The notes under the pieces: model-generated
The model's input: the letters and a program-made list of their open reading frames with translations, nothing else
Database searches by the model: none
Told to the model about the DNA's origin: nothing
Program-made: the position numbers and the translations under genes
Shown here: in pieces, positions 13,953-33,671 of the stretch
Numbering within the stretch: position 1 is the first letter of the stretch
How the letters are laid out: each line of letters begins with the position of its first letter
Source: a virus
Length of the DNA: 51,863 nt
Reading direction: 5' to 3' (one strand)
IMG/VR virus record: IMGVR_UViG_3300043409_000904
Coordinates: 1 to 51,863 of that record

Positions 13953-13976
13953 TAGTTAAATTATACATTACAATAG

Positions 13977-14007
13977 AAGGGATGCAGAAATGTTATCCCT
14001 TTTTTTA
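13977..14007 (+). terminator. Rho-independent terminator after tail tube gene
   Basis: AAGGGAT (13977-13983) pairs with ATCCCTT (13995-14001) across an 11-nt loop, followed by a run of T residues. It lies 24 nt after the tube stop codon. Confidence 0.88.
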
Positions 14008-14022
14008 TTTTTTGAAAAGTAT

Positions 14023-14031
14023 ATATTTATA
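14023..14031 (+). promoter_or_regulatory. Candidate late promoter motif ATATTTATA
   Basis: Exact motif copy between the tube terminator and the chaperone gene, ending 23 nt before the ATG at 14055. The terminator-promoter order makes this a clear start of a new transcription unit. Confidence 0.62.
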
Positions 14032-14054
14032 TATAAATTATTAGTTATTATATT

Positions 14055-18025: not shown

Positions 18026-19441
18026 ATGGCAACAATTTTAGATTTATTCAAAACCAATCAATCAGATATTTACGGAAAAGTTGATAATATCCGTATAAAT
18101 AGTAGGGGATTGATTAACCCACCTAGAGGTGCAGCATTACTACTATCATCACCAAATACAATAGCAGACCTAATAGGTAATCAGGTAAGTGGAGTTCTTA
18201 AAGGTTCTGCAAATAGACCATCGGATACTATATTTAGTAATAATACTCCATTTTCAAAACCAATTTCATTAGGTAAAACTAGAGCTGGATTACAAAATGT
18301 AATTGAAGCTAATACTAACTATTTTATAAAAGATAACCCATCTCCAGCATCGGTCATCGCGAAAATAACACAGGGAGCATCTACAACCGAAGGTATTGGT
18401 GCAAATTTAGCAATAGGGGCAATAAACAAATTTGGTAGTAAAAAGGGATTCGAAGATTTAAAAAACTATAAAAATAATTTATTAAAAAAGAGAGGAGATG
18501 AAACGTATGGTGCAATGCTTACCAAAAACGGAGAATCTACTGGTGTAAAAACCGAAGATAAAAAGTTTAGTCAATACTATCGTACTTATGAAATTGATCG
18601 AATAACTAAAAAGGTTATTGAGGGAGATAAAGGTTTATTAAAGTTAAGAAAAGGTTCTACACTTCCAACGTGGGATAATGTAAATACCAATATTTTAAAT
18701 AAATCACATTTTAAAGATACAAAAGAATATTCAAATGAAATTTCCGCTAATAAAAACGCTGGAAATGTGTATGTGACTTTTAAAAAATATGGAAAAAATG
18801 AAATTGTACCGTTTGTTGGAACTATATCGGGCATATCCGAAGATATTACACCTGAATGGAGTGCTTTTAAATACATAGGTTCACCGTTTAATATTTATAG
18901 ATATGGTGGGGTAGAAAGGAGTATAAAATTTGATTTAAAATTATACTATACAACAATTAGTGAAAGAGATGTTATGATTAAAAAAATAAATTATTTAAAA
19001 TCATTGGCATTTCCATACGATGAAGTATCTACTATCAAATATAATGATTCTGAAACAACTTTAGCATTTTCACCAAATTTAGTATATATGGGTATTAGTG
19101 GGTTATATAACAATGTGTTAGGATATGTTGAAAGTTTATCATTCAATATAGAAGAAACTGTATCATGGTCAAATGTAAATCCTAATATGGAAGATGTAGG
19201 TTTCGCAACCATTGGAGACGATACTATATATCCTAGTCTAATAAATGTATCATTTGGTATGAAAATTATAGAAAATCATACTACGGAAGTAAAAGATACG
19301 GTAACTAGATATAGATACGATTTCGATGGGTACGGTTATGATGGAATAACGGAAACAAACAAAGCTAAATCAATTAAAATATCACAAACCAATACTCCAT
19401 TTTCCACACCAAAAACGTTAAAAAACGTTAATTTAATATAA
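18026..19441 (+). CDS. gp48: Baseplate tail-tube cap protein (gp48/gp54-like)
   Basis: A 471-aa protein. The N-terminal half is variable and basic. The C-terminal half resembles the T4 gp48/gp54 group: IKFDLKLYYTTISERDVMIK, then KINYLKSLAFPYDE, LVYMGISGLYNNVLGYVESL, FNIEETVSWSNVNPNMED and YPSLINVSFGMKIIENH. In T4 these two proteins (gp48 is 364 aa) start the tail tube on the baseplate. Only one such gene is seen here, so it may do the work of both. The LysM-type gp53 gene follows after 10 nt, then the hub gene, which gives a compact baseplate operon behind one late-type motif. Confidence 0.65.
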   Translation: MATILDLFKTNQSDIYGKVDNIRINSRGLINPPRGAALLLSSPNTIADLIGNQVSGVLKGSANRPSDTIFSNNTPFSKPISLGKTRAGLQNVIEANTNYFIKDNPSPASVIAKITQGASTTEGIGANLAIGAINKFGSKKGFEDLKNYKNNLLKKRGDETYGAMLTKNGESTGVKTEDKKFSQYYRTYEIDRITKKVIEGDKGLLKLRKGSTLPTWDNVNTNILNKSHFKDTKEYSNEISANKNAGNVYVTFKKYGKNEIVPFVGTISGISEDITPEWSAFKYIGSPFNIYRYGGVERSIKFDLKLYYTTISERDVMIKKINYLKSLAFPYDEVSTIKYNDSETTLAFSPNLVYMGISGLYNNVLGYVESLSFNIEETVSWSNVNPNMEDVGFATIGDDTIYPSLINVSFGMKIIENHTTEVKDTVTRYRYDFDGYGYDGITETNKAKSIKISQTNTPFSTPKTLKNVNLI

Positions 19442-19451
19442 TATATAGATA

Positions 19452-19754
19452 ATGGCAAGTAGATACATATATAATGAGATATTAAAAGTTAAGGAAACCA
19501 AACAAAACTATTTGGAATCAACCATATATCCTAAAATAAAACCAAACAACAATGATTTATATATTATTTCAGAGCAGGGTGATAGATTAGACTTATTGGC
19601 AAATAAATACTATGGTGATACAACTCTTTGGTGGGTAATTGCAACTGCAAATAATATAAATGATGCTACATTCTATGTTGAAGCAGGTATTCAATTGAGA
19701 ATACCATCTGATACTAATACAATATTAAACGATTTACAAAAAATAAACAGATAA
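19452..19754 (+). CDS. gp53: Baseplate wedge protein gp53-like (LysM fold)
   Basis: A 100-aa protein with IISEQGDRLDLLANKYYGDT, then LWWVIATANNI and EAGIQLRIPSD. This is a LysM-like fold of the type found in baseplate proteins that link wedge and hub; T4 gp53 (196 aa) has such a domain. The remaining N-terminal part is about 40 residues (YIYNEILKVKETKQNYLEST). It is half the length of T4 gp53 and so close to a minimal version. It is followed after 3 nt by the hub gene, whose ATG has the GTTATG context. Confidence 0.7.
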   Translation: MASRYIYNEILKVKETKQNYLESTIYPKIKPNNNDLYIISEQGDRLDLLANKYYGDTTLWWVIATANNINDATFYVEAGIQLRIPSDTNTILNDLQKINR

Positions 19755-19757
19755 GTT

Positions 19758-22040
19758 ATGGCATTTCCGTATTTAGCACCAATTAAAGGTTGGATGAAAT
19801 CGGTTCTTGAAGAAAGAGAGCAACACCCAACCGATACTGCTCTTAAAATGCCGTGGATAGTACTTACTTCCGGTGCAAAAGTGGTAAAGGCTTCACAAAA
19901 ATCAGAAAATGCAGAAGAAAAAGTAGAAACTTTAAAAAAAATAATAGGAGGTACTTCGGGCACAACTGAATATTATGGATGTATTATAAAAAATAATATA
20001 GATGTCGCATTAAACTACCAACAAAATGAAACAATAGTTGGTATTGATTTTAACGGGAAGCCCATAAAGGTTGAAGGTGAAACTAATAGAAGGGCATCAA
20101 CTCCTATTATAGAATCCGTTGATATTGATACCGATGGTGCTAATAATACTTTAAAAACTGCAACAGTTAGTGTTAGGTGTTTTACACTTAAACAGTTTGA
20201 AATGTTTGAATTGTTTTTTTGTAAACCAGGTATGAATGTATTATTGGAATATGGTAATAATACATTGGATAGAAAAAAATACGAACAATCCGGAAAAAAT
20301 GAATTAAAATCATTTACAAAATCATCGGAAGCATTGATAGATAAGACGGATTATAACACATTTGTTCAAACTTTTTCCGATTATTATAGGGTAAATACTA
20401 AATCTTTAAAAGATTATCTATCAAAAATTGAAAGAGCAAAGGGTACATATGATTTAGTTGCAGGAAAGATTACAGATTATAATTTTGCAATAGATAAAGA
20501 TGGCACATATACCGTATCATTGGAAATTTCTCAAGGAAATCAGATGACACTCGCTATACCTACAAACATATCAAATGATAAATCTAGTATTGCATCAAAA
20601 TCAAAAGAAAAGGCAACTACTTTTGAACAATGGGTTTCACAACTTTCTGCAGATTTAAAATTGGATAAATCGGTTTTAAAACTTGATAAAACTAAATGGG
20701 AGCATGATTTTTTTAATTGGAATAAATTAAATATTACAAAAAAAGATGAAACTGCAAATTCCGATCAATATGTTTCATTAAGGTTCATATTGAAAGAGTT
20801 AATGAATTATTCTATAATAGATGGTAATATTGATAAAAATACATTTGAGTTTACAATGCCAAAATATAAAATAGATGATGTTGATACTGAAATTATTCCA
20901 ATACGAATTCATAAAGATATAATATCATCATCCGAAGATGTTTTATTTCCAAACAAAACACTTCCAAAGTTTGTTGCAAAAATCAAACCATCAACCGCAG
21001 TAGATGCTAAACCACAAGATAATATTGAAATATCAAATATAACCGATGATGGTACTATAAATGGGTATTCAGTAATAGAATCAAAAGTAGTTAAACTTGC
21101 AGTAGAAAACGGTACTTCAATAATAATAAATCCAACCAATGGCGATGAAAGGTGTGGAAATGCTTTAAATATTTTTATAAAGTATAAAGTATTAGTTGAA
21201 ATATGGAGAAAATCATATACGAGAGCAGATTTTTTAAATGGAATACTATCAGTTGTGAATTCAAACTCATATGGACTTTTTAGATTGATATATGCCCCAC
21301 AAGCAGAAAGAAGTACTGCGACTGTAATAGATTTCAAATCAACAAATACAATACAAATTACAGAGGAAAACTTATATAAATTTAAACCTACTACTATAAA
21401 CTCAAATGTTAAAGATTTTACTTTTAATTTTGAAATGAGTAATTTGGTTGCAGGTAGAACGGTATTCAACTCACAGAGGTTTTTATCAAATTATGCTAAA
21501 ACAGGAGCTAAAACCGAAGGAAAGGAAATACAATTATCGGCAGATGTTTATCAAAGTGTTGATTACTCAATGTTTTCAAATGCGGATGGATTTTATTCTA
21601 TAAATATGATTGACTTAGAAGCTATTAAAAAAACATTGCAAGAAGCGGTTGATACTAGCCAGATACAATCTAATACGGATACAAAAGCAGAAGAAAACGA
21701 AGCCGTAGATTTTACTGAAATAATTGAAGATAAATCTATTAAGTTCATACTACCATCCGGTATTAAAACATTAGTATTTACTGATAGAGAATTGATAGTA
21801 AATAAATTGAAAATAAACGAAGAAGCGAGTGGTAATACCTTAACTCCAATAGATGTAACCATCGCAATTGATGGTATAAGTGGATTTAGTTGTGGAGAAT
21901 ATTTTAACATAGTTGGTGTTCCGGAAATATATAATCAAATAGGAGTGTTTCAAATAACAAACACAAAGCATAATATATCAAACGAAGGTTGGACAACCAC
22001 ACTAGAAGCAGGATTTAGAATAAATAAAAAGAACAAATAA
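19758..22040 (+). CDS. Baseplate hub protein (gp27 / gpD-like)
   Basis: A 760-aa protein. Features: an N-terminal region (LAPIKGWMKSVLEEREQ) followed by ALKMPWIVLTSGAKVV; a beta-rich domain near residues 70-190 (ESVDIDTDGANNTLKTATV, then MFELFFCKPGMNVLLEYGN); and a C-terminal domain (FSCGEYFNIVGVPEIYNQIG, then FQITNTKHNISNEGWTTTLE). The last motif, H-x-I-x-x-x-G-W-x-T-x-L, is typical of tail hub proteins of the gp27/gpD type. No lysozyme domain is visible, unlike T4 gp5, so cell wall cutting must be done elsewhere. At 760 aa it is about twice T4 gp27 (391 aa), with insertions between about 350 and 650. The next gene overlaps its stop by one base. Confidence 0.6.
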   Translation: MAFPYLAPIKGWMKSVLEEREQHPTDTALKMPWIVLTSGAKVVKASQKSENAEEKVETLKKIIGGTSGTTEYYGCIIKNNIDVALNYQQNETIVGIDFNGKPIKVEGETNRRASTPIIESVDIDTDGANNTLKTATVSVRCFTLKQFEMFELFFCKPGMNVLLEYGNNTLDRKKYEQSGKNELKSFTKSSEALIDKTDYNTFVQTFSDYYRVNTKSLKDYLSKIERAKGTYDLVAGKITDYNFAIDKDGTYTVSLEISQGNQMTLAIPTNISNDKSSIASKSKEKATTFEQWVSQLSADLKLDKSVLKLDKTKWEHDFFNWNKLNITKKDETANSDQYVSLRFILKELMNYSIIDGNIDKNTFEFTMPKYKIDDVDTEIIPIRIHKDIISSSEDVLFPNKTLPKFVAKIKPSTAVDAKPQDNIEISNITDDGTINGYSVIESKVVKLAVENGTSIIINPTNGDERCGNALNIFIKYKVLVEIWRKSYTRADFLNGILSVVNSNSYGLFRLIYAPQAERSTATVIDFKSTNTIQITEENLYKFKPTTINSNVKDFTFNFEMSNLVAGRTVFNSQRFLSNYAKTGAKTEGKEIQLSADVYQSVDYSMFSNADGFYSINMIDLEAIKKTLQEAVDTSQIQSNTDTKAEENEAVDFTEIIEDKSIKFILPSGIKTLVFTDRELIVNKLKINEEASGNTLTPIDVTIAIDGISGFSCGEYFNIVGVPEIYNQIGVFQITNTKHNISNEGWTTTLEAGFRINKKNK

Positions 22041-22414
22041 TGTATAAGGATATAGCAAACAATTTGGGATTATTCACAATACAAATACCACAAACGATAG
22101 TCCCATCACCAACTCCAAATGATTATGAAATTGGGTTTATACGAAGATATTTTTGTCAAAAAGCAAATGATGTAAATGGATTTGTTTTTGAAATATCAGT
22201 TGAAGTATATGATATATTGGGATCAAATGTATTTTGGAAAGTTGCAGATTTAAAATGGAGAATAATTGGACCAATTGATACAGTATATAAAGATAATGGC
22301 GAGATAGAAGATGTTGGTGTTATAAAATCTAATAAATACGCATTACAAACTGCAGCATCTACTGTAAAAAATATTGGATTATATTTACCAAATATTTTAC
22401 AATTTTATAAATAA
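22040..22414 (+). CDS. Hypothetical protein coupled to hub gene
   Basis: A 124-aa protein whose ATG shares a base with the TAA of the hub gene, so the two are translationally coupled. It is beta-rich with aromatic residues: VNGFVFEISVEVYDILG, FWKVADLKWRIIGPID, and a C-terminal TVKNIGLYLPNILQFYK. No cysteine pair, signal or membrane segment is seen. I do not recognise a family. Coupling to the hub suggests a baseplate component or assembly factor. Confidence 0.55.
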   Translation: MYKDIANNLGLFTIQIPQTIVPSPTPNDYEIGFIRRYFCQKANDVNGFVFEISVEVYDILGSNVFWKVADLKWRIIGPIDTVYKDNGEIEDVGVIKSNKYALQTAASTVKNIGLYLPNILQFYK

Positions 22415-22441
22415 TATATATATATATAAAACAAATTAGTT

Positions 22442-23218
22442 ATGAAAGAATACAAACATTTATCCGTTGAGGAAAGACAACAAATGACCTTTGATTGGAG
22501 ATACAGGGGGTTCACTGTACTAGAATTACTAACAGAAGATGAAGTTGATGAAATCAATGAAGAATTGAATAGATTGAGGTTAGAAAGAAATGTAAACGAA
22601 CCAGAAAAATGGACAGAATTTGAACCATTTATGTACCCGCATAAACTCTCTGCAAAATTAGAAAAACTATTCGTACATCCAAAAATGATTGAAGCGTGTG
22701 AATATCTAATGGATTCGGACATAGTTGGTATGCAAACGTGGGCATATTACAAACCAAAAGGTGAATTAGGAAGAGATCAACATCAAAACGCATTTTATAC
22801 AGGATGTGGACATAATGAAATCATTAACACTGCATTAGCATTAGATAATCACGACCCTGAAAATGGGGCAGTGTGGAATTACGAAGGTTCTCACCGATTG
22901 AATACATTACCTATTGAAGATAATGAAGAACGTAAAGCAACAAATACCGGTAATTGGAGAAGTGAGAGAGGTAAAAGTTGTGTTATGCCGGAAGGACATG
23001 ATTTCAAAAAAATTGAAGGATATTTAAGAAAAGGACAAGTAGCATTATTACATTCACACGTAGTACACGGTTCAGAGCCAAACGGAGATACTACACGAAT
23101 GAGAAGAAACTTTTTGAGTGGGTATTTAAAAAAAGGAGCGTATTTTAATCCAGGTACTCAAATGAAAAGAGAGGTAATTGATATTTATGAATTAAAAACA
23201 AAACATTGGGGAGAATAA
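22442..23218 (+). CDS. PhyH-like dioxygenase with altered metal site
   Basis: A 258-aa protein of the phytanoyl-CoA dioxygenase (PhyH) family of Fe(II)/2-oxoglutarate oxygenases. The family signature is visible: DQHQNAFYTG (first ligand His114), ALALDNHDPENGAVWNYEGSH, and HSHVVHGSEPN (His209) followed by Arg residues around 219-222 for 2-oxoglutarate. The usual H-x-D is H-x-N here (Asn116 in place of Asp), so the iron site is unusual. It lies between baseplate genes and a DNA polymerase gene, with the GTTATG start context, and is followed by a host-type promoter. Substrates in the family are small molecules or modified side chains; a nucleobase or protein side chain is possible, but nothing here shows which. 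Confidence 0.75.
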   Translation: MKEYKHLSVEERQQMTFDWRYRGFTVLELLTEDEVDEINEELNRLRLERNVNEPEKWTEFEPFMYPHKLSAKLEKLFVHPKMIEACEYLMDSDIVGMQTWAYYKPKGELGRDQHQNAFYTGCGHNEIINTALALDNHDPENGAVWNYEGSHRLNTLPIEDNEERKATNTGNWRSERGKSCVMPEGHDFKKIEGYLRKGQVALLHSHVVHGSEPNGDTTRMRRNFLSGYLKKGAYFNPGTQMKREVIDIYELKTKHWGE

Positions 23219-23219
23219 T

Positions 23220-23250
23220 TTTGTAATATCAATTTTTTTTTGTATATTTG
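23220..23250 (+). promoter_or_regulatory. Host-type promoter of polA-like gene
   Basis: TTTG at 23220-23223, 19 nt spacer, TATATTTG at 23243-23250. The ATG at 23257 is 7 nt after the final G, so the expected transcription start falls at or next to the start codon. Confidence 0.8.
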
Positions 23251-23256
23251 AACTAT

Positions 23257-24516
23257 ATGTTCATTATAGAGAAAGAAGAAGATGTTAAATTAATTAACCC
23301 AATTGATACTAAACTGGTAATCCCAATTTGGAGTTCTAACATCGGACACGAATTGGGATTTCCTATTTCTTTTGTATACATACGTACCAAAGATACTGAA
23401 TATATTTTAAATTTCCAACACATCGATGCAAATAGAGTTAAACCCTTTAATATCAGTGAGTTATGTAATGAGAATACATTAGTATTGGGAAATCGTTATA
23501 TAGGTACTAAAGGATACGACTACGAGTATATCTACTTCGAACACTACGGAATTACCTTTTCACCTAAAGAGTTCTTTAGAGAGGTTTATAATGGGTACAG
23601 AACAAACTACGCAGAATTGAATGATTGTATACCTTTAATGAAATGGTACAGTATATTAAAAACTATACCATTGATAGATGATATAAAAAGTTGGTATAGA
23701 AGGTATTCACATTCAATAACACAGTTAGGAAGAATCGAAGGGGCGGGGGTTCGGGTCGAAGAAGCAAAATTTATTGATAGTTTTAATTTCCCGCAGCAGT
23801 ACATCCACAACGGTTTGGTGTATACAAAGTACAATCCATACACCACTACATCTCGTCCATCCAACCACCACTTAAATGTAAACTGGTCTGCGTTAAATAA
23901 ATCCGATGGTATCCGCTCCTCCATCATATCCCGTTTTGAGGAAGGTACATTAATTCAATTTGATTATGAATCATACCACATTCGTTTAATTGCGGGGTTA
24001 ATAGGTTATGAGTTTCCAAAAGGAGAAACTGCCCATCAACACCTCGCAAACCTTTACGGTACGGATTATGAAACTGCCAAAGGGCTAACATTTCGGTATC
24101 TATATGGGGGTTTAGATGATTTGGCGAGGGGGATACCATTTTTTCAAAAGGTAGAAGTGTATATTAGTGAGATATACCAAAAGTTTGTAATTTCGGGTTG
24201 TTTAACGACTCCTCTATATAAGAGAGAAATACACCACTCAAAAATTGAAAACCCGACTGAACAAAAAGTATTTAATTACCTATTACAGGCATTAGAAACT
24301 GAAATTAATTACTTAAAGATTGAAGATATCCTAAACACTTTGGTAGGGAAACGGTCAAAATTGATATTATACACCTATGATGCATTTCTTATAGATACTC
24401 ATCCCGAAGAGAGAGATTGGGTGTTAAGTGAATTACCAATTGGAATGGAAAGGGGTGGGTTTCCAATACGTTCTTATGAGGGAATTAATTATGATAATTT
24501 GAAAGTAATTAAATAA
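23257..24516 (+). CDS. Divergent family A DNA polymerase-like protein
   Basis: A 419-aa protein. I chose ATG 23257 because the longer frame starts with a TTG inside the promoter -7 box. Family A polymerase motifs appear in order: TTTSRPSNHHLN (Pol I T-x-R-x-S-x-x-x-N-L), then GTLIQFDYESYHIRLIAG (motif A, Asp236), AKGLTFRYLYGG (motif B with Lys275, Phe279 and Tyr283 in the O-helix spacing) and ILYTYDAFLID (motif C, Asp375). Both catalytic Asp are kept. Motif A Glu of DYSQIELR is His here, O-helix Arg754 is Tyr, and the HDE of motif C is YDA. The first 170 residues may be a degenerate exonuclease domain (KGYDYEYIYFEHYGI resembles the exo II region). It is much shorter than Pol I Klenow (about 600 aa). 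The role is unknown; repair or translesion synthesis is possible. Confidence 0.7.
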   Translation: MFIIEKEEDVKLINPIDTKLVIPIWSSNIGHELGFPISFVYIRTKDTEYILNFQHIDANRVKPFNISELCNENTLVLGNRYIGTKGYDYEYIYFEHYGITFSPKEFFREVYNGYRTNYAELNDCIPLMKWYSILKTIPLIDDIKSWYRRYSHSITQLGRIEGAGVRVEEAKFIDSFNFPQQYIHNGLVYTKYNPYTTTSRPSNHHLNVNWSALNKSDGIRSSIISRFEEGTLIQFDYESYHIRLIAGLIGYEFPKGETAHQHLANLYGTDYETAKGLTFRYLYGGLDDLARGIPFFQKVEVYISEIYQKFVISGCLTTPLYKREIHHSKIENPTEQKVFNYLLQALETEINYLKIEDILNTLVGKRSKLILYTYDAFLIDTHPEERDWVLSELPIGMERGGFPIRSYEGINYDNLKVIK

Positions 24517-24531
24517 AAATATATATTTATA
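24498..24531 (+). promoter_or_regulatory. Hybrid promoter of internal-protein operon
   Basis: TTTG (24498-24501, inside the upstream gene), 20-nt spacer, TATATTTATA (24522-24531), which contains the late-type motif ATATTTATA at 24523-24531. The ATG at 24557 lies 25 nt downstream. Confidence 0.55.
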
Positions 24532-24556
24532 CAGGATAAACACGCAATTACCAACA

Positions 24557-24958
24557 ATGATAAAGTTAAAAGATATACTAAACGAGAGTGTTATGAGTGT
24601 ATCGGATTTAGATGATACATTGGAACAATATAGAAAGGATACTAATTGGACAGATTGGTATATGAGTGGAGGATGTTATACATTTGCTGATGCACTAAAT
24701 AAGTATTTAGAAAATAGGGGTAAGTATATAGCTATAATAGAGCCGGAAACAAAAGCTATGGTTCATGTTTGTATTTTGTATAACGGAAAATATTGTGATT
24801 ATAACGGATGTAGAAGTAAAAACGATATACTATCCGATATCACTATAAACGGAACTCCTATATGGAAAAATATAAGTAGGTCACAAATAACATCTGAATA
24901 TAATTTTGATAATAGTGAAGTAAACTCAATACTAAAAAATTTAAGTAAAATAAAATAA
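24557..24958 (+). CDS. Putative injected head protein, papain-like
   Basis: A 133-aa protein. Its first ten residues, MIKLKDILNE, match the N-termini of the genes at 24958 and 26387 and resemble T4 capsid-targeting sequences, which the prohead protease gp21 removes after a Glu at about position 10. The rest holds YMSGGCYTFADAL (Cys40), MVHVCILYNGKYCDYNG (His70, Asp81): a Cys, His, Asp order and spacing like papain-fold peptidases or amidases. I infer an enzyme packed in the capsid and injected with the DNA, acting on a host target early in infection. The catalytic assignment is tentative. The next gene starts on the last base of its stop codon. Confidence 0.6.
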   Translation: MIKLKDILNESVMSVSDLDDTLEQYRKDTNWTDWYMSGGCYTFADALNKYLENRGKYIAIIEPETKAMVHVCILYNGKYCDYNGCRSKNDILSDITINGTPIWKNISRSQITSEYNFDNSEVNSILKNLSKIK

Positions 24959-26382
24959 TGATAAAGTTAAAAGATTTATTAAACGAAGTAAAATTCAAAT
25001 CACCGGATTATATTATTAGTACAACCCCCGCATCTAGTTTACCGGCACAAAAATTAGGTCATGCAGATGTATCTGTTGGTTTAAAAATGGCAGAAAAACT
25101 TAAAAACTATACATTACATGTTAGACACTATAAATTAGTACACGCCGATGGAAAAGTAGCATTAAAACTAACACCGGAAGGTAAGACCGCAGTAAGAGTA
25201 CGAACCGAAGATGACCCAAAATACTTACAATTGATACAAAAGACAGTTAATGATGTTGTAGCAGATTTTGTAAGTAAAATAAAAGAATCAGTAAACGAAG
25301 CATTAGACCCTAAAGCAGAAAAATTCTTAGATGCTATTCAGGTTAATGATAGAAGTATAAAGGATTTAAAGAATATCACTGTCGATGCAACCCCACAAGG
25401 TAATTGGTCAGTTTATTACAAAGGTAAACGTATGTTTACTCTTAATGGTAAGATGTTAGATGATAAAACTATTATGAAATATGGTTTAGAACATATGGAT
25501 GAGAGTTTATCAGAAGGCAAATACTATGTAACCTACAATAGAGGTAGGGGACAGGGTAAGGGGTTGGAAAAGGAATTTGACCAAAAATCATTTAGTTCAA
25601 CCGATAAACCAAAAGTATTTAATTCATATAATGATGCTAAGAAATACGCTGAAAAAATGGAAAAGATGTTCCAACATTCAATCGGTGGCGGTGTCGCATA
25701 TTGGGTATCGGATGAGAAGATGAATCCTATAAAAGAATCAGTAAACGAAGATAAAGTTTATATTGATTTTCTAAATAAGAAAAAGGGATTTAAGCAAGAT
25801 AGGATTAAATTTAATTCTTATGAAGATGCCGTTAAATGGGCAAAGAAGAATTTTGACAAGTTTGACCCCGATATGATTAAATACGAATCAGTAAACGAAG
25901 ATGCACCCATCTACAAAGATTGGGATGAATTTGTAAACCCACACTATATTTTAGTAACATTAAAAAATGGTAAAAAACTAAAAATAGAGAAAAAAAATGT
26001 TAAAGGTGGTACAAATATATATCACGCAATTTTAAAAGCTTTTAATGATAATAACCATAAAATAACTAATAAAGTTGTAAGTGGAATGATTGATAGATTA
26101 GGTGAATCGGTAAACGAAGCTCAAGCAAAGTATGATGTATATCACAATTCATATACATCGGCAATTCAATCGGCTAAAGAGTACGCAGAGAAAAACGGAT
26201 ATACTGTTAGCGATGATGATTCATTTAGAAAAATAGGTATGGGACCTCGTAAACCATCGGAAGGAAAGACCAATAGCTTTAGTATTGAATTATCATATGG
26301 TGGTAAAGATTCCAGAAAACAATTACATATTCAAGTATATGGTATGAGAAACAAATACGAATTAAACTGCTATATAGGATAA
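24958..26382 (+). CDS. Putative internal head polyprotein with ESVNE sites
   Basis: A 474-aa protein starting MIKLKDLLNE (capsid-targeting type). The sequence ESVNE occurs four times (residues 110-114, 260-264, 310-314, 383-387) and ESLSE once (182-186), always preceding a new module. Cutting after each final Glu, as T4 gp21 does at hydrophobic-x-Glu, would give six pieces of about 50-104 residues. Modules 3 and 4 share FNSY-x-DA-x-K-x-A. The last module (YAEKNGYTVSDDDSFRKI, GPRKPSEGKTNSFSIEL, QVYGMRNKYELNCYIG) is a domain I recall from virion proteins of marine T4-like phages. No membrane segment is seen. I infer a set of small proteins packed into the head as one chain and released by the prohead protease. 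Confidence 0.65.
   Translation: MIKLKDLLNEVKFKSPDYIISTTPASSLPAQKLGHADVSVGLKMAEKLKNYTLHVRHYKLVHADGKVALKLTPEGKTAVRVRTEDDPKYLQLIQKTVNDVVADFVSKIKESVNEALDPKAEKFLDAIQVNDRSIKDLKNITVDATPQGNWSVYYKGKRMFTLNGKMLDDKTIMKYGLEHMDESLSEGKYYVTYNRGRGQGKGLEKEFDQKSFSSTDKPKVFNSYNDAKKYAEKMEKMFQHSIGGGVAYWVSDEKMNPIKESVNEDKVYIDFLNKKKGFKQDRIKFNSYEDAVKWAKKNFDKFDPDMIKYESVNEDAPIYKDWDEFVNPHYILVTLKNGKKLKIEKKNVKGGTNIYHAILKAFNDNNHKITNKVVSGMIDRLGESVNEAQAKYDVYHNSYTSAIQSAKEYAEKNGYTVSDDDSFRKIGMGPRKPSEGKTNSFSIELSYGGKDSRKQLHIQVYGMRNKYELNCYIG
25285..26119 (+). repeat. Interspersed 16-bp repeat coding for ESVNE
   Basis: GAATCAGTAAACGAAG occurs exactly at 25285-25300, 25735-25750 and 25885-25900, and with one change at 26104-26119. 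The units are spread over 835 bp of the polyprotein gene. Conservation at DNA level suggests module duplication or exchange. Confidence 0.85.
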
Positions 26383-26386: not shown

Positions 26387-26809
26387 ATGATAAAACTGAA
26401 AGATTTAATTAAAGAAATCGAATTTTCTACACAGAAAGCATTTGATACATATAGTAAGGCTCATAAATTAAGACCTGATACGAAAGTGAAAGTTGCAGGT
26501 AAAAACACTACCGCAGGGGCTGCATCGCAAGTAAAAGGTACATCTGTATTTGGTAAAGCAGGTGGAGCATCTGCTAAACCTGATGGTATGGATACAGTTA
26601 ATGCAATCGCAGCTAGGACTGGTATAAGAACAACTGCAGTGGCAGGTTGGGCAGATACAAATGGTGTAAATTTGGCTTCTATTTCAAAAGATTTAAAATC
26701 TAAAAAGTTAAAACCAATGGATTTAATGACCGCAATTAGTGGTAATCCTGGTAACAAATACGCTAAAGATATAATCGCAAAGTATTCCCAAAGTGGTGGA
26801 AGTAAATAA
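26387..26809 (+). CDS. Putative internal head protein
   Basis: A 140-aa protein with the capsid-targeting-like start MIKLKDLIKE, so cleavage after Glu10 would leave about 130 residues. The next part, FSTQKAFDTYSKAHKLRPDT followed by KVKVAGK, is basic and resembles segments of virion proteins from other T4-like marine phages. A Gly/Ala-rich linker then leads to a helical C-terminus (IAARTGIRTTAVAGWA, then SISKDLKSKKLKPMDLMTAI). High Lys content would suit binding to packaged DNA. It is the third gene in a row with this N-terminal tag. The function after injection is unknown. Confidence 0.6.
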   Translation: MIKLKDLIKEIEFSTQKAFDTYSKAHKLRPDTKVKVAGKNTTAGAASQVKGTSVFGKAGGASAKPDGMDTVNAIAARTGIRTTAVAGWADTNGVNLASISKDLKSKKLKPMDLMTAISGNPGNKYAKDIIAKYSQSGGSK

Positions 26810-26818
26810 TAAAAACAA

Positions 26819-28969
26819 ATGATTCCAAATTTTGAAGAAATATTATCAGAATTAAGTTATAGAATTCCGGAGGGTATAATTGATCTTACTAAACCACATC
26901 AGGTAAATGAACTGATTGAGATACTGAAAGAACATAATATATCATCACCAACTGCACTTGCTCAAAAAGCAACTCAATGGTTCACTTTATTAAAAGAGGA
27001 TGATATTGTAAAAAACAAAAAAACAGGAAATATATATACGGTTAAAACTTTTAACCCGGATACGCACCTAAAACCAACACCTGCTGAAATAGATAAGGCA
27101 AAGGGTGATGGGGAAATAAAACCAGAACCTACACCAAATATTTTTGACAAACCAACTGAAAAGGATACCGATGCTGGTGAGACTTTAAGTTTGGATTCAT
27201 TTTTAGATGGAATACCAGATACATCCAATACTATAAAGGGGAAAGATTCGGTAAAAGCAGGGGCAAACGCAATACTTAATCAGTTAGATAAATTTGCAAA
27301 TGCACCAAATAATCCAAACGCGGATTCTCATAAAAAAACAAAATCATTAATTGATAAAATGTTTAATGGTGAATCATTGGGTGATGATGAAAAGGCGTTC
27401 TTATACCAATTTATTAGAATTGCAGAACCAACCGTAAACAATCCAAATTCTGCCAAATTTTATATTGCAAAAGAACCTAATAATTTTAAAGGAAATAAAA
27501 GGGCTAAGATTGAAATCGGTAGTAGAAGTGGTGGCACACCTACGCTTGCTGCATTTAGAAAATTTACCGAAAAGGCTGGGTTATCACAAATGTCCGCATC
27601 TACGTTTGGTACAAAACTAACAACTCCAAACCAAACATTTACTGGTGAAGATGGTAAGGTTAAGTTAATTATGGGTAAAGATGGAAACGAATGGACATCG
27701 GTTGTTAAGAATGAAAACGATATAGTAACTTCAATAAACTTTGGTGATACTAAACTTACACGATTAGATTTAAATGACCCTAATATATCAGAAACAGAAT
27801 TAAAATTAAGAGAGAGAAATAATCGTAATATGGATGATTATTCCAGAGCAATTGAAAAGCGTGATTTGAAATTTATTGATATGGATGAGGGTGTAACACC
27901 TGATACTCCTGAAAATAGAGTTATTGTTATCAGAGGTGCATTAACTGGGATGGCAACTAGATTGAGAGAATTGGCTAACAAAAGTGGTACTAATGAGGAA
28001 CGGGTTACAAATATTATAGATTCAATTGATACCTTTGCAGAAAGAAATCCAAACGAATCCCCACAAGAATGGTTTAAAGATTTAAACGCAGTAATGTCTT
28101 CAATTGCAAATGATGAAGGAGAGCCATCATTAAGAGAATCTTGGGCAAACTATGCAGAAGTATACGCGGCTATTGTAGCTATGCATGGCGGTGGTAATGG
28201 TACTGAAAATGGCGCATGTGCTTTATTACCGGAAAGTACAACATTGCAAACGGTTGATGTACTTACTATTAATACAAATGGTGTAGGTGAGAGGAGGATT
28301 GTAACATTGGATGGGAGGAGTGTTAAAAAAGGAGTAGGAGCACCTAGTGCCTTAACATCTAAAGCCGAAAAATCTACTTATAAAAATGATAAAGACGGTA
28401 CTAAAAAGACATCTATTATAGAATTATCCAAATCGCACGATGATATATACCGTATGAAATTGGATGAACCAATTGAATCGCATACTGAATACCAAACCAA
28501 ATATCGCAGTAATCTAATAGATACTGTTAGAGAATTGGGAGTAAGTGGCGATTATATCACTACCATAGAAGATGCTCTTACAGAACCAAACAGAGGATGG
28601 GTATCTGTTGGTAAAGCACTTGCTCAAATAGAACTTCAAAGAACTAAAAAGAACATAGATGCTTCGGCAGAAACTATGAAAAAAATTCGTATGAGATTGG
28701 AAAGTTATTATTTATACAATAAATTGGCACACGATGTATATAATACAAACGTAGATATTCAGGATTTTAGTAATGATAGTATATTATCACAATCAGATGA
28801 TAGGGGTGGTACTCAATTAGTTAAAAATAAAGATATTAAAATAGATTCATCTGATGGTGTTAATATTTTAGCCTATATTAAATCTGAATTTAATGTTGGG
28901 ACATGGGGAGATGGTGGCAGGAGTGGAAACGCTGGAGCGGGTAGATTCCATAATGCACCTAAAAAATAG
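26819..28969 (+). CDS. Large putative virion (head) protein
   Basis: A 716-aa protein. The N-terminus MIPNFEEILSEL could be a further targeting peptide (cut after Glu10), although it differs from the MIKLKD type. It continues with YRIPEGIIDLTKPHQVNELI and ILKEHNISSPTALAQKA, a segment I associate with structural proteins of T4-like marine phages. A linker rich in Pro, Thr and Asp follows (about 85-140), then a mixed alpha/beta body, with GGGNGTENGACALLPESTT near 460 and a C-terminal Gly-rich tail (GDGGRSGNAGAGRF). I see no enzyme motif that I trust. Its place after three tagged genes, all downstream of one hybrid promoter, supports a capsid-associated role. Confidence 0.5.
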   Translation: MIPNFEEILSELSYRIPEGIIDLTKPHQVNELIEILKEHNISSPTALAQKATQWFTLLKEDDIVKNKKTGNIYTVKTFNPDTHLKPTPAEIDKAKGDGEIKPEPTPNIFDKPTEKDTDAGETLSLDSFLDGIPDTSNTIKGKDSVKAGANAILNQLDKFANAPNNPNADSHKKTKSLIDKMFNGESLGDDEKAFLYQFIRIAEPTVNNPNSAKFYIAKEPNNFKGNKRAKIEIGSRSGGTPTLAAFRKFTEKAGLSQMSASTFGTKLTTPNQTFTGEDGKVKLIMGKDGNEWTSVVKNENDIVTSINFGDTKLTRLDLNDPNISETELKLRERNNRNMDDYSRAIEKRDLKFIDMDEGVTPDTPENRVIVIRGALTGMATRLRELANKSGTNEERVTNIIDSIDTFAERNPNESPQEWFKDLNAVMSSIANDEGEPSLRESWANYAEVYAAIVAMHGGGNGTENGACALLPESTTLQTVDVLTINTNGVGERRIVTLDGRSVKKGVGAPSALTSKAEKSTYKNDKDGTKKTSIIELSKSHDDIYRMKLDEPIESHTEYQTKYRSNLIDTVRELGVSGDYITTIEDALTEPNRGWVSVGKALAQIELQRTKKNIDASAETMKKIRMRLESYYLYNKLAHDVYNTNVDIQDFSNDSILSQSDDRGGTQLVKNKDIKIDSSDGVNILAYIKSEFNVGTWGDGGRSGNAGAGRFHNAPKK

Positions 28970-29001
28970 TATTCAAAAAAACACCTTTGAATTAAAATTT
29001 T

Positions 29002-29029
29002 ATACTTATTTAAGATTACACTAAATAAG
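29002..29029 (+). promoter_or_regulatory. Late-like motif overlapping a hairpin
   Basis: ATACTTATT (29002-29010) is a two-base variant of the late motif, ending 29 nt before the ATG at 29040. CTTATTTA (29005-29012) and TAAATAAG (29022-29029) form a perfect 8-bp inverted repeat with a 9-nt loop, so the site may act as promoter, weak terminator or leader hairpin. Confidence 0.35.
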
Positions 29030-29039
29030 CTACATTAAA

Positions 29040-29441
29040 ATGAATACACAACTATTGTGTCTGTTTACAACAAAAGGTCAAATAGATAATTCTTTAGATT
29101 TTATACTAAAAAACTATATATTGCAGAATAACAATATCTTTGTTTTGCAGAGCAAGATAAATGATGACGAATTGTATATAACTTTTAATGTAGAAAAAGG
29201 TTCTGCACCAATTGATTCTGAATGGAAAACTATACTTGTTCATAGAAAAAAACAATCTAACACTATATACACTATAAACGCCTTAAACGAAGTTATTAAA
29301 TCAAAAACAGGCGGTCAAATTGATACTTCATTTCAAATAGATTGGGATGATTTTACCAATTGTATACTAACTACTTCAAATACTGGATACAGAATGATAT
29401 CTACAAAAGTGTTCAAAACTATTAATACTCAAAATTTGTAA
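29040..29441 (+). CDS. Hypothetical protein
   Basis: A 133-aa protein of mixed composition: LCLFTTKGQIDNSLDFILKN at the start, then IFVLQSKINDDELYITFNVE and WKTILVHRKKQSNTIYTINA, ending with YRMISTKVFKTINTQNL. The pattern suggests an alpha/beta fold of one domain. No cysteine cluster, nucleotide-binding motif, signal or membrane segment is visible. It sits between the head protein genes and the DNA metabolism genes, and the next promoter's TTTG lies in its last codons. I do not recognise a family; similar short proteins occur near gp32 or primase genes in some T4-like phages, but that is not strong evidence. Confidence 0.5.
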   Translation: MNTQLLCLFTTKGQIDNSLDFILKNYILQNNNIFVLQSKINDDELYITFNVEKGSAPIDSEWKTILVHRKKQSNTIYTINALNEVIKSKTGGQIDTSFQIDWDDFTNCILTTSNTGYRMISTKVFKTINTQNL

Positions 29442-29466
29442 TTTCAAAATATTATTCGTATATTTG
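29435..29466 (+). promoter_or_regulatory. Host-type promoter, leaderless gene
   Basis: TTTG at 29435-29438, 20-nt spacer, TATATTTG at 29459-29466. The ATG at 29471 begins 5 nt after the final G, so the transcript should start at or within a base or two of the start codon. Confidence 0.8.
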
Positions 29467-29470
29467 GTTT

Positions 29471-29800
29471 ATGCCAAAATACAAATTTACTCCAATTCAA
29501 TTACATACCGATAAAGACGTTGATATATTCGAAAAAAACGAAATAGAAATATCAAAAGCAATTATCTATGGTATAGATTATGGTATCAAATACAAAAAAC
29601 CGGTTGTTGATTTTGCAGAAATTGTACTAAAAAATGCATTCTACATAACCCTATCTATCGAAAGTTCTCAATTTGAAAATTTAATAGAGCAAAACCTACA
29701 AACTTTACTAAAATATGAAGAATATGAAATGTGTGCCTTATGTGTAAAATTGAAAAATAAATTAAAAAAACAAAGTGAAAAACCAAATAAACAGTTATGA
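29471..29800 (+). CDS. Hypothetical protein, leaderless
   Basis: A 109-aa protein: MPKYKFTPIQLHTDKDVDIF, then IEISKAIIYGIDYGIKYKKP and a helical, Lys-rich C-terminus (LLKYEEYEMCALCVKLKNKL). The CALC pair is the only cysteine motif. It probably folds as a small alpha/beta domain with a helical tail. Its start lies 5 nt after a host-type -7 box. Its stop overlaps the ATG of the Nmad1 gene by 4 bases (ATGA), so the two are co-expressed. The family is unknown; being early-type and coupled to Nmad1 suggests a role in nucleotide or DNA handling, but this is only context. Confidence 0.55.
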   Translation: MPKYKFTPIQLHTDKDVDIFEKNEIEISKAIIYGIDYGIKYKKPVVDFAEIVLKNAFYITLSIESSQFENLIEQNLQTLLKYEEYEMCALCVKLKNKLKKQSEKPNKQL

Positions 29801-30150
29801 AAGAACAGAAAGAACAAACCGCAATTGAATATTGCGAAGAAACCTATCCACAAACGTGCGAAGAATTCAAAAACATTTTAGATGAAATGTATGTCACCTT
29901 TTGTAAGAAACAAAGAAACTACGGACCTGGGAACATTTCAGTAGGAACTTCATTAGAAAGTAAAGATGATGTTAAGTTATCCCTAACTGGATTATGGTTC
30001 AGACTTAATGATAAAGTACAACGATTAAAACAATTGATAGTATTAGGTCAACCTGATGAAGTAGGTGAATCAATACAGGACACATACGAAGATATCTCCG
30101 TATATGGCATAATTGCTCAAATAGTACAAAGAGGCAAGTGGGCAAAATAA
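29797..30150 (+). CDS. Nmad1 / DUF1599 nucleotide-modification protein
   Basis: A 117-aa protein. The motif RNYGPGNISVGTSLES, followed by SLTGLWFRLNDKVQRLKQLI and VGESIQDTYEDISVYGIIAQ, is the hallmark of DUF1599, also called nucleotide modification associated domain 1 (Nmad1). The family is all-alpha and related to MazG-like nucleotide pyrophosphohydrolases; it occurs next to genes for modified bases in phages. The acidic residues of the SIQDTYED helix would bind metal. It may control nucleotide pools or act on a modified nucleotide. It overlaps the upstream gene by 4 bases and is followed at once by the gp32 promoter. Confidence 0.75.
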   Translation: MKEQKEQTAIEYCEETYPQTCEEFKNILDEMYVTFCKKQRNYGPGNISVGTSLESKDDVKLSLTGLWFRLNDKVQRLKQLIVLGQPDEVGESIQDTYEDISVYGIIAQIVQRGKWAK

Positions 30151-30151
30151 A

Positions 30152-30183
30152 TTTGTTAATATCAAATAAATAACGTATATTTG
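30152..30183 (+). promoter_or_regulatory. Host-type promoter of gp32
   Basis: TTTG at 30152-30155, 20-nt spacer, TATATTTG at 30176-30183. It leaves an untranslated leader of roughly 90 nt before the gp32 ATG, the longest in the window among host-type promoters. Confidence 0.8.
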
Positions 30184-30199
30184 ATATAACAAAAGCAAA

Positions 30200-30239
30200 A
30201 AGGTTATATTTATTAGTAGGAATATTGCAATATAACCTT
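30200..30239 (+). promoter_or_regulatory. Leader hairpin upstream of gp32
   Basis: AAGGTTATATT (30200-30210) and AATATAACCTT (30229-30239) form a perfect 11-bp stem with an 18-nt loop in the gp32 leader, followed by an unstructured A/T-rich stretch up to the ATG. In T4, gp32 represses its own translation by binding a structured site and a single-stranded stretch in its leader; a similar operator is inferred here. The stem also contains ATATTTATT, a variant of the late motif. Confidence 0.6.
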
Positions 30240-30281
30240 AAAACTTAAAAACAATTTATTAACATTTAAAACTTAAAATTA

Positions 30282-31148
30282 ATGGACATTTCATTAGCAT
30301 TAAAGAGATTTAGCTCTTTACAAAACAACACAAAAAAGTCTGACTCAATTTGGAAGCCAGCAAACGGTAAATCTCAAATCCGTTTAGTACCCTACAAATT
30401 TAATAAAGATAATCCTTTTATTGAATTGTATTTTCACTACAACATTAACAACAAAACGTACTTGTCACCAATTTCATTTGGAAGACCTGACCCAATCGTA
30501 GAGTTTGCAGACAAACTTAAACGTACAGGCGATACTGATGATTGGAAAGCAGGTAAGAAAATGGAGCCTAAATTAAGAACATTCGCACCAGTCGTTGTTA
30601 GAGGTAAAGAAAATGAGGGTGTTAAATTTTGGGGATTTGGTAAAACAGTTTATCAGGATATTTTGGGTTACATAGCCGATCCTGATTATGGAGATGTTAC
30701 TGATCCAATCAGTGGTAGAGATATTGTATTAGAAGTTACCGCAGCGGAAGAGTCTGGTACATCATATCCAACAACAACAATTAGAGTAAAACCCGCCGTT
30801 TCTAAACTGCACGAAGATGCGACAACCGTTCAACAACTATTGGAGGGACAAAAAGAAATTACTGAATTATATCAGGAATTATCTTACGCAGAATTAAAAG
30901 GTATTTTAGAAAATTGGTTAAATCCATCAGCAGGGGCACCGGATGAGGAATCAGTTGTAGCTGAATTAGCGGCAACTAAAACTCCAACACAACCTGTATC
31001 TACAACATCGGTTACAACCCCACAGTATGCGGCGACAACTCCTACAACGGAATTAAAAGATGATTTACCGTGGGAAGATGACGCACCTAAAACATCTGCA
31101 CCAAAAGATGATGTAGCATCGGCATTCGATGATTTATTTAACAATTAA
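30282..31148 (+). CDS. gp32: Single-stranded DNA-binding protein gp32
   Basis: A 288-aa homologue of T4 gp32 (301 aa). The core shows SIWKPANGKSQIRLVPYKFN, FIELYFHYNINNKTYLSPIS, then FGRPDPIVEFA and VVVRGKENEGVKFWGFGKTV. A Thr/Pro-rich linker leads to an acidic C-terminal tail (DDLPWEDDAP, VASAFDDLFNN), the part that binds other replication proteins in T4. The basic N-terminus (LKRFSSLQNNTKK) matches the cooperativity region. There is no cysteine in the protein, so the zinc-binding site of T4 gp32 (His and three Cys) is missing. uvsX follows after 14 nt, so recombination and replication genes are expressed together. Its own leader hairpin may give autoregulation. Confidence 0.9.
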   Translation: MDISLALKRFSSLQNNTKKSDSIWKPANGKSQIRLVPYKFNKDNPFIELYFHYNINNKTYLSPISFGRPDPIVEFADKLKRTGDTDDWKAGKKMEPKLRTFAPVVVRGKENEGVKFWGFGKTVYQDILGYIADPDYGDVTDPISGRDIVLEVTAAEESGTSYPTTTIRVKPAVSKLHEDATTVQQLLEGQKEITELYQELSYAELKGILENWLNPSAGAPDEESVVAELAATKTPTQPVSTTSVTTPQYAATTPTTELKDDLPWEDDAPKTSAPKDDVASAFDDLFNN

Positions 31149-31162
31149 TTAAAGCAGTTACG

Positions 31163-32269
31163 ATGGCAAAAAGAGAAGATGATTTGGCAAGTGTTCTTGC
31201 TGAATCATTAAATAAACAAAATAAGGATGGTAAGATTGCGTATTTCCTAACAGATGAGGGAGGGGATGCACCAACAAATGTAAAAGATTGGTTATCGACC
31301 GGTAATGCAATGTTGGATGTGGCAATCTCTAATAGACCTTATGGGGGTTTGCCAGTTGGTAGAATTGCAGAGATTACGGGTTTAGAGCAGAGTGGAAAAT
31401 CTCTGCTCTCTGCCCATCTTTTAGCAGAAACCCAAAAGAAGGGTGGTGTTGCAGTACTAATTGATACAGAAACCGCAGTAAGTAGGGAATTTTTAGAAGC
31501 AATCGGAGTAGATATTTCAAAACTCCTATATGTTTCAGTTGATACTGTTGAAGGTATTTTTGAAGCGTGTGAAACAATTATTGAGCAGGTTAGAAAAGGT
31601 GATAAAGACCGATTAGTAACAATTGTAGTAGATTCGGTAGCAGCTGCATCAACTAAATTGGAATTGGAAGCCGATTATGATAAAGATGGATTTGCGACAG
31701 GTAAAGCTATTATCATTTCAAAAGCAATGAGAAAGATTACCAATATGATTGGTAGACAATCTATCGCACTTATATTTACAAACCAATTAAGACAGAAAAT
31801 GAACGCAATGTTTGGTGACCCCTGGACAACATCAGGTGGTAAAGCATTGGCATTCCATAGTTCAGTTAGATTGAGATTGAAGAATATGGGGCAATTGAAA
31901 GTTGGTGATAGAATTGTTGGTATTAAGGTTCGTACGCAAGTTATTAAAAACAGAATGGGACCGCCACTAAGGTGTGCAGATTTTGATATCTTCTTTGATA
32001 GAGGTATTGATAACTACGGAGGTTGGTTAGCAGTTATGAAAGATAATAAAATTGTTAAACAGGCAGGTGCTTGGTATGAATACACTGATATAGAGAGTGG
32101 TGAAGTTATGAAGTTTCAATCTAAGGATTTTCCAAAGATGCTACAAAACGAAGTATTAAAAGACCAAATCTATCGTAGGATATGCGAAGAAACTATATTA
32201 CAATATAAAATCAATTCGAATTCGGAAGAAGTTGAAGTTACAACGGACGAAACAAATGAGTCAGATTAA
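31163..32269 (+). CDS. uvsX: UvsX RecA-like recombinase
   Basis: A 368-aa RecA/UvsX homologue (T4 UvsX is 391 aa). Walker A is GLEQSGKS (residues 73-80), the next segment is VAVLIDTETAVSREFLEAIG, and Walker B is RLVTIVVDSVAAAS. DNA-binding loop regions follow (SIALIFTNQLRQKMNAMFGD, TSGGKALAFHSSVRLRLK). It forms filaments on ssDNA with gp32 and drives strand exchange and recombination-dependent replication. Its C-terminus is acidic. The RNase H gene starts inside it (ATG 32256, a 14-base overlap). Confidence 0.92.
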   Translation: MAKREDDLASVLAESLNKQNKDGKIAYFLTDEGGDAPTNVKDWLSTGNAMLDVAISNRPYGGLPVGRIAEITGLEQSGKSLLSAHLLAETQKKGGVAVLIDTETAVSREFLEAIGVDISKLLYVSVDTVEGIFEACETIIEQVRKGDKDRLVTIVVDSVAAASTKLELEADYDKDGFATGKAIIISKAMRKITNMIGRQSIALIFTNQLRQKMNAMFGDPWTTSGGKALAFHSSVRLRLKNMGQLKVGDRIVGIKVRTQVIKNRMGPPLRCADFDIFFDRGIDNYGGWLAVMKDNKIVKQAGAWYEYTDIESGEVMKFQSKDFPKMLQNEVLKDQIYRRICEETILQYKINSNSEEVEVTTDETNESD

Positions 32270-33314: not shown

Positions 33315-33338
33315 ATAGTTAAATTAATAAAAACAGTT

Positions 33339-33644
33339 ATGGAAGAAGTATTAGTGAAACCGTTAGGTGATAGGGTATTATTATCTGAAACGGATGCTGG
33401 AGAGCAAAAAACTCCAAGTGGCATTATTATACCAGATAGTGCGAAAACGGAAGATATTAAAACCGCTAAAGTGGTTGCAATCGGCCCTGGAATATACACC
33501 GCAAGTGGTACTTTGATACCAATGAGCGTATCAGTGAATGATATCGTAATGATACCACCATACCATCAAGGTACAGAGGTTAAATTAAATGGTAAAAAAT
33601 ACCTATTAATGCGAGAATCAGAAATATTAATGATTAAACAATAA
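33339..33644 (+). CDS. groES: GroES-type co-chaperonin
   Basis: A 101-aa protein with the full GroES pattern: VKPLGDRVLLSE, a mobile loop (ETDAGEQKTPSGIIIPDSA), VVAIGPGIYTASG, VNDIVMIPPYHQGTEVKL and KKYLLMRESEILMI. T4 uses gp31, a distant functional relative of 111 aa, whereas this one is recognisable as a cellular-type GroES, so it was probably taken from a bacterial host. It should cap the host GroEL during folding of phage proteins, above all the major capsid protein. The start has the GTTATG context. It stands among replication genes, which suggests early expression. Confidence 0.9.
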   Translation: MEEVLVKPLGDRVLLSETDAGEQKTPSGIIIPDSAKTEDIKTAKVVAIGPGIYTASGTLIPMSVSVNDIVMIPPYHQGTEVKLNGKKYLLMRESEILMIKQ

Positions 33645-33657
33645 ATAAAAAAATCAC

Positions 33658-33663
33658 GGAGGA
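33658..33663 (+). promoter_or_regulatory. Shine-Dalgarno-like site GGAGGA
   Basis: GGAGGA lies 8 nt before the ATG at 33672. It is the clearest Shine-Dalgarno-like site I noted; most genes here have only A/T-rich upstream sequence or GTTATG. Confidence 0.5.
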
Positions 33664-33671
33664 AACAAATT

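Follow-up and report, generated by a model that had tools for sequence, protein, structure and literature searches.

A putative capsid-targeted cargo polyprotein with exchangeable modules in uncultured T4-like phages

Why would a phage keep, within a single gene, a protein in which almost the same five residues return five times? The question is raised by an open reading frame (ORF) encoding 474 aa (24958..26382, stop codon included) on the plus strand of the window, i.e., the whole stretch of DNA analyzed here, a T4-like phage fragment of 51.9 kb (virus record G000). The initial annotation had interpreted this ORF as a head polyprotein that is cut into six virion peptides by a T4-type prohead protease. 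The sites lie where it placed them, with ESVNE at residues 110, 260, 310, and 383 and ESLSE at residue 182, and the N-terminal LLNE tag is also present, since the protein starts with the 10-aa sequence MIKLKDLLNE. Cutting mature proteins out of a polyprotein is typical of RNA viruses and retroviruses; for tailed phages, the usual view is that internal proteins are packaged with one tag per gene.

Tag, modules, and linkers of the 474-aa protein

All the features described in this section are encoded on the plus strand. The tag (24958..24987) is like a T4 capsid targeting sequence (CTS), and its predicted cut falls after Glu10. The CTSs of T4 have 10–19 aa, and that of IPIII has 10 aa and is processed at residues 8 and 10 (PMC9026906). 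The tag of the window protein, with 10 aa and a hydrophobic-x-Glu (hxE) end formed by L8 and E10, has the same form as these T4-type sequences.

Module 1 (aa 11–114; 24988..25299) ends in linker 1 (GAATCAGTAAACGAAG; 25285..25300), which encodes ESVNE with Glu114 at P1 and overlaps a second site, IKE110|S. The homologues of this module in L002, L003, and L004 begin after LLNE or ESVNE. Module 2 (aa 115–186; 25300..25515), whose homologues in L159, L160, and L186 start after GVNE or KFE, ends in linker 2 (GAGAGTTTATCAGAAG; 25501..25516), which encodes ESLSE with Glu186 at P1 and overlaps MDE182|S. Module 3 (aa 187–264; 25516..25749) is missing in a near-identical phage, G001, and its homologues in other proteins are preceded by VKE, VNE, VSE, INE, LNE, or LTE; linker 3 (25735..25750; P1 = Glu264) is again the exact 16-mer and overlaps IKE260|S. 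Module 4 (aa 265–314; 25750..25899), of 50 aa, is related to module 3 and is found in about ten other proteins, after ESINE, ESVNE, or TTLNE. Module 5 (aa 315–387; 25900..26118) lies between linker 4 (25885..25900; P1 = Glu314), also an exact 16-mer, and linker 5 (GAATCGGTAAACGAAG; 26104..26119; P1 = Glu387), which overlaps LGE383|S. The C-terminal module 6 (aa 388–474; 26119..26379) is shared with the Methylophilales phage Melnitz. The six modules span 50–104 aa.

Of the 11 [VILMF]-x-E triplets in the chain, 10 mark the end of the tag or one of the five internal seams, and four of these seams carry double sites of the type hxE|S-h-x-E|, e.g., IKE|SVNE|A. At P1', the position right after the site, two of the five linkers have Asp, which is less usual there than Ala, Gly, or Ser and counts against the cleavage reading. 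When the 474-aa protein was shuffled 20,000 times, a mean of 0.025 motifs and a maximum of two were obtained, and no shuffle contained five; in addition, ES[VIL][NSTKED]E is carried by none of the remaining ORFs of the window. This test, together with the recurrence of the motif across many metagenomes, in 94 non-redundant proteins, rules out chance or an assembly artefact, to which we assign a negligible probability. The polyprotein observation is real and forms part of a widespread system.

No Pfam domain was found in the window polyprotein, and the families to which 77 family members had matches included no peptidase. Structure prediction, which had been suggested for each module, was informative for module 6, whose AlphaFold model (pLDDT 86) consists of helices followed by strands. 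The model of the full 474-aa chain (pLDDT 37.6) is unusable, and thus, independent folding is seen for module 6 only. A structural search with the module 6 model retrieved nothing significant (best E 0.025), and modules 3/4 and 6, searched as profiles against PDB, gave no significant match. Module 6 also weakly resembled (E 0.033) a protein of 1134 aa carrying the name anti-CBASS Acb1, a match that was set aside.

The ORF is flanked by other tagged genes on the same strand. The 24557..24958 gene encodes a weakly YunG-like protein with the tag MIKLKDILNE|S, the 26387..26809 gene carries the tag MIKLKDLIKE|I, and the 26819..28969 gene encodes a 716-aa protein with the divergent tag MIPNFEEILSE|L for which no family match was found. 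The product of the 26387-26809 gene has 140 aa in the window vs. 312 aa in the near-identical G001 (29136-30074), and the extra C-terminal part of the G001 protein resembles a 423-aa tagged protein of L066 (9863-11134). In the latter, NEGRISLTKMVNE and NEGRISLTKMVKE are internal repeats and ESIKLAKLVK is C-terminal, so that entire tag-like helices serve in it as internal separators.

Concerning the rest of the window, a gp19-like tail tube protein and a baseplate protein were identified with Pfam and PHROGs, and UvsX- and gp32-like proteins were identified from the translations by inspection only. The structural protein encoded at 9366-11111 contains a Laminin_G_3 domain (Pfam) and, as judged by eye, a Hint/intein-like self-processing stretch (CLLFGTKVKLSNG ... 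YLANGTISHN). An SPPYF(D/N)xExYSxD/ExxQS-like motif, also detected by eye, is common to the ORFs 36032-37087, 41718-42959, and 43732-45303, suggesting that they encode related methyltransferase-like proteins in one phage.

Linker DNA and module exchange

The exact 16-mer GAATCAGTAAACGAAG occurs three times, with one more copy carrying a single mismatch, and matches with up to three mismatches amount to six vs. 0.55 expected. In 79 flank-distinct contexts the island GAATCNRTAAACGAAG appears amid otherwise unrelated flanks, and the conservation ends at the borders of these 16 nt. The coding GAATCAGTAAACGAA represents 61% of ESVNE codings vs. the 3.8% expected by background codon usage. Across 72 ESVNE contexts, the codons GTA and AAC reach 97% and 88%, vs. 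49% and 27% elsewhere, and an AGY serine codon never appears. The codon bias of highly expressed genes was discarded as a cause, since the codon usage of the major capsid gene fails to explain GTA.

All of the at least 246 copies of the linker DNA, which are distributed over at least 80 further contigs, are in the ESVNE frame, ruling out a purely DNA-level element. The residue after the site was Ala in 109 of 279 contexts (18 expected), Gly in 66 (21 expected), Ser in 29, and Lys in 2 (42 expected), and the excess of Ala persists within the GNN-coded residues (chi2 161). The conservation of the DNA, the single frame, and the Ala excess together indicate that both levels are under selection or homogenization; recombination alone could drive the conservation at the DNA level.

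The relatives of the window protein have conserved ends, with the N-terminal types A and B and the C-terminal types F and G, and their central modules appear in many orders; the letters are approximate, because the types derive from cutting at the linkers and single-linkage clustering. With the linkers masked and HSPs of at least 90% identity, 54 of 78 homology breakpoints (69%) were found within 5 aa of a linker end vs. 10.8% at random, and several of the others fell on further hxE seams, i.e., GVNE|A, TLNE|D, VVKE|G, and ALNE|R. A regex-free count placed 107 of 149 at seams vs. a null of 31%, but it is contaminated, as the Glu of 'ES' was picked, and does not serve as our main evidence. Module 1 follows the LLNE of the tag in the window protein and ESVNE elsewhere, and therefore the tag end and an internal linker are interchangeable borders. 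Judging from these sequences, the common feature of the borders is hydrophobic-x-Glu, and not the letters ES.

Modules and anchors are also found on their own. Module 5 alone constitutes in L039 a complete 102-aa tagged protein (MIKLTEILTE|ETPIYKDW, with a 10-aa tag). By inspection, anchors without cargo were recognized in isolates: gp072 of Flavobacterium phage immuto consists of an A-type anchor alone, and in a 178-aa gene of Microcystis phage Mel-JY01 an A anchor is joined directly to an F-type C-terminus with a single VNE between them.

Window positions 19429-25520 and 26803-34796 match the DNA of G001 with identities of 98.9% and 99.4%, respectively. The G001 polyprotein has the order 1-2-F'-5-4-6, i.e., modules 4 and 5 have traded places and module 3 has given way to another. 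The homologous blocks overlap at 25885-25900 (16 bp, linker 4) and at 26104-26121 (18 bp, linker 5), and the homology breaks at 25520, about 5 nt past linker 2. We consider this rearrangement the most direct evidence that the linkers act as exchange seams. Contrary to our prediction, hxE sites are not depleted inside the modules, where h.E[AGS] shows a 1.89-fold enrichment, apparently because there are further seams without the ES prefix, and no such excess was observed in the other ORFs of two relative genomes.

These observations bear on a reading in which ESVNE is just the translation of a seam, be it a short homology or the target of a site-specific recombinase, and the protein stays as an intact string of domains that is never cleaved. 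The strong conservation at the codon level, which the major capsid usage does not explain, and the block overlaps of exactly 16–18 bp would agree with it. Nevertheless, a seam of this kind would not have to keep one reading frame in every copy, nor would it explain that P1' favours Ala and Gly beyond the G at base 16, that 162 of 286 are double hxE|S sites, that other hxE sequences also act as seams, that a linker and the N-terminal tag are equivalent, or that the capsid protein obeys the same rule (see below). We thus find recombination without cleavage quite unlikely and favour linkers that are cleaved as well as exchanged. In any case, module-sized homologues and breakpoints bear out the initial claim that the sites fall at module borders, the kinship of modules 3 and 4 holds, and the conservation of the 16-bp repeat at the DNA level turned out to be stronger than the initial annotation could know.

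The apparently fibre-like ORFs located upstream of the tail genes (window 1-8355) align with G001 as a patchwork of displaced blocks, and therefore they too seem to recombine.

Relatives, head genes, and the protease rule

A protein search of IMG/VR with the window polyprotein yielded 40 loci with module-sized matches, and a DNA-pattern search for two linkers 195–225 nt apart yielded at least 80 stretches. After all the searches, the set comprised 123 polyproteins, or 94 once the near-duplicates were removed, revealing a large uncultured family. The 94 non-redundant polyproteins contain 299 ES[VILM]xE sites, with up to nine in one 819-aa protein, and the median size of their internal modules is 75 aa, with quartiles at 64 and 82.5. 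The search in bacterial genomes gave no relatives, and among phage isolates only module 6 of the window protein was matched, in Methylophilales phages.

In the 51.9-kb window, no match to the prohead protease family (PF03420) was found and no capsid gene was seen. Because the window is a fragment that lacks these genes, the link to the head rests on the relatives. At least one of five T4-type head genes is present in the fetched stretch for 86 of the 94 polyproteins, always on the same strand, and the polyprotein lies within 3 kb of the prohead protease in 58 of the 63 measurable cases; this setting is partly due to the way in which the loci were fetched, but those of the DNA-pattern search were picked regardless of their genes. 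Among 14 relative contigs, 8 scored over the Pfam cut-off for PF03420. The polyprotein of G013 comes after terminase, portal, and a 290-aa gene and is followed by two small genes, protease, further small genes, scaffold, and major capsid protein, and in G002 the protease is flanked by two polyproteins; the terminase, portal, scaffold, and capsid genes of both were assigned by their sequence and the T4 order. In L066, the protease spans 11605-12204 and the polyprotein 12841-14340.

In the window and in G001 the polyprotein gene is found outside the head cluster, between the tail genes and the replication genes. This location would be expected if the polyprotein were made early and cut by a host protease or by another phage protease, with no relation to the head. 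Given that nearly all the relatives are encoded beside portal, protease, and scaffold, and that the tag resembles CTSs, we regard such an early polyprotein as very improbable and retain the link to the head.

Other proteins of these loci deserve mention. The gp079 protein of the cultured phage immuto (L314:18007-20532; 841 aa), whose full name is vB_FspM_immuto and whose host is Flavobacterium sp. LMO8, contains ESVNE and ESLNE sites in the contexts MNESVNE|G and LKESLNE|D and is encoded about 2.5 kb upstream of the terminase. L070 (G004 50761-56760) encodes, close to the head cluster, a 1999-aa tagged protein that has three ES[VI][NS]E sites and a GRFQPFHKGH-like nucleotidyltransferase motif, and a NadR-annotated gene is similarly placed in immuto. 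The C-terminal half of a hypothetical protein from the head cluster of Mel-JY01 (L233:7591-8757) looks, by eye only, ADP-ribosyltransferase-like and is reminiscent of T4 Alt.

The gp21 protease of T4 cleaves after L/I-X-E (PMC9026906), and the SPN3US protease uses A-X-E (PMC5694885). The LLNE of the tag and the LSE of the linker fit L/I-X-E, and the VNE linkers have Val at P3. The sequence QL[LVI][DS]E|A was found at the T4-type maturation position in 15 major capsid proteins from these phages and Mel-JY01, a position that we take to be that of the T4 maturation cut from a manual comparison with gp23 rather than a computed alignment. VSE|A occurs in the major capsid protein of L067, whose polyprotein has nine linkers, and also in that of immuto; since this is the capsid maturation position, it is plausible that the protease of this clade accepts Val at P3. 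The T4 protease rule invoked at the outset stands therefore as hydrophobic-x-Glu at the borders, and not as a strict L/I-X-E, since P3 is mostly Val.

Proposed route and known systems

Taken together, linker shuffling, the equivalence of linker and tag, the in-frame conservation of the DNA, the preference for Ala, Gly, and Ser, the link to head genes, and the rule at the capsid site lead us to propose, from comparison of sequences, that the ORF probably encodes a CTS-tagged head cargo polyprotein, cut by a gp21-type protease, whose linkers double as recombination seams. The 10-aa tag would bring the chain into the core of the prohead in the manner of T4 CTSs, a step suggested by its likeness to them. 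A gp21-type prohead protease (Peptidase_S77) would then very likely cut after Glu at the hxE sites, many of them double (hxE|SVNE|), and cutting would free the tag and the six modules inside the head. The modules may stay with the DNA and be ejected along with it, and they might conceivably counter host defences or take over the host. This effector role is a guess because the cargo modules match no known effector family. Thus, from the head polyprotein initially envisaged, the modular chain, the kinship with the prohead-protease system, and the small tagged cargo modules are backed by the comparative data, and the effectors are not. The initial annotation did not foresee the shuffling of modules among phages, the role of the linker DNA in recombination, or the modules that stand alone behind a tag. 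The 16-bp linker DNA would provide a homology seam at which modules are duplicated, swapped, and exchanged among polyproteins and phages, with annealing, template switching, or a dedicated enzyme as candidate routes, and the result would be a fast-changing set of small proteins.

The polyprotein could instead belong to the structural core, being packed and cut like gp22 and gp67 of T4, with modules that are core or scaffold pieces, degraded or retained, and without any role in the host cell. In fact, the conserved head proteins that form the N- and C-terminal anchor modules stand alone in isolates (immuto gp072 and the 178-aa Mel-JY01 gene), the scaffold also has several such sites, and gp22, gp67, and gp68 of T4 are cleaved repeatedly (PMC9026906). 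However, the central modules are quickly replaced or swapped between phages that are about 99% identical, and single modules exist as separate tagged genes, which fits dispensable cargo better than an assembly part. We consider a purely structural core polyprotein unlikely and continue with the cargo polyprotein.

The closest known counterparts are the T4 proteins IPI, IPII, IPIII, and Alt, which are CTS-tagged, processed by gp21, and injected, and which likewise have a 10-aa tag ending in hydrophobic-x-Glu. They are also similar in the small size of their units, as mature IPI* has 76 residues (PMC3012670), and in combining a hypervariable set with a conserved tag, the CTS being all that diverse T4 IPs have in common (PMC9026906, PMC3012670). 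Nevertheless, T4 uses one tag per protein and gene, whereas here several modules follow each tag, separated by internal sites and conserved linker DNA. The T4 core proteins gp22, gp67, and gp68 are alike in being head proteins cut several times by gp21, which the polyproteins, with predicted cuts, adjoin in the relatives; the pieces of the T4 proteins are scaffold remnants, whereas here the borders delimit exchangeable modules. In the head ejection proteins of phiKZ and SPN3US, a gp21 homologue also cuts after Glu and there are paralogues with identical N-terminal tags, but their sites are S/A-X-E or A-X-E, cutting removes propeptides with multiple sites, and the accessible part of the source describes no shuffled modular cargo (PMC5694885).

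Polyvalent proteins such as DdrB of phage P1 (Iyer et al., 2017; PMC5512222) are multidomain too and are thought to be delivered with the DNA and released by proteolysis, but they contain large enzyme domains and embedded peptidases, unlike the small domains found here, with no embedded peptidase found and with sites of the prohead-protease type. In marine T4-like phages (Melnitz QZI94753.1; L195; L040), module 6 or 4 is preceded by separators of the MDE or IDE type, although these are EVEIDE/EVELDE-type sequences instead of ESVNE. The L040 protein (5206-6432) has EVEIDE before module 4 and, after it, ESVKE followed by an HNH_3-like segment (E 8.8e-4, under the curated cut-off), and it appears to bridge the marine-type and ESVNE-type separators.

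Of what defines a viral-type polyprotein, these chains show several units separated by putative sites of a phage-encoded protease, and the units also occur as single proteins. The literature search, with most subscription journals outside it, found no mention of the ESVNE motif and no phage polyprotein with prohead-protease cleavage sites; because of that coverage, this is weak evidence of novelty.

Extending the proposal to the whole family, we see an even chance that uncultured T4-like phages possess a cassette system in which a 16-bp coding linker serves recombination as a seam and is also a prohead-protease site; small injected proteins could then be gained, lost, or reordered behind a single capsid-targeting tag. 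If true, a shuffled cargo chain separated by a protease would offer a simple design to load several proteins into a phage head, the ESVNE/hxE seams would provide a computable signature listing dozens of candidate anti-defence proteins, and the chain would account for the diversification of the proteins injected by uncultured T4-like phages.
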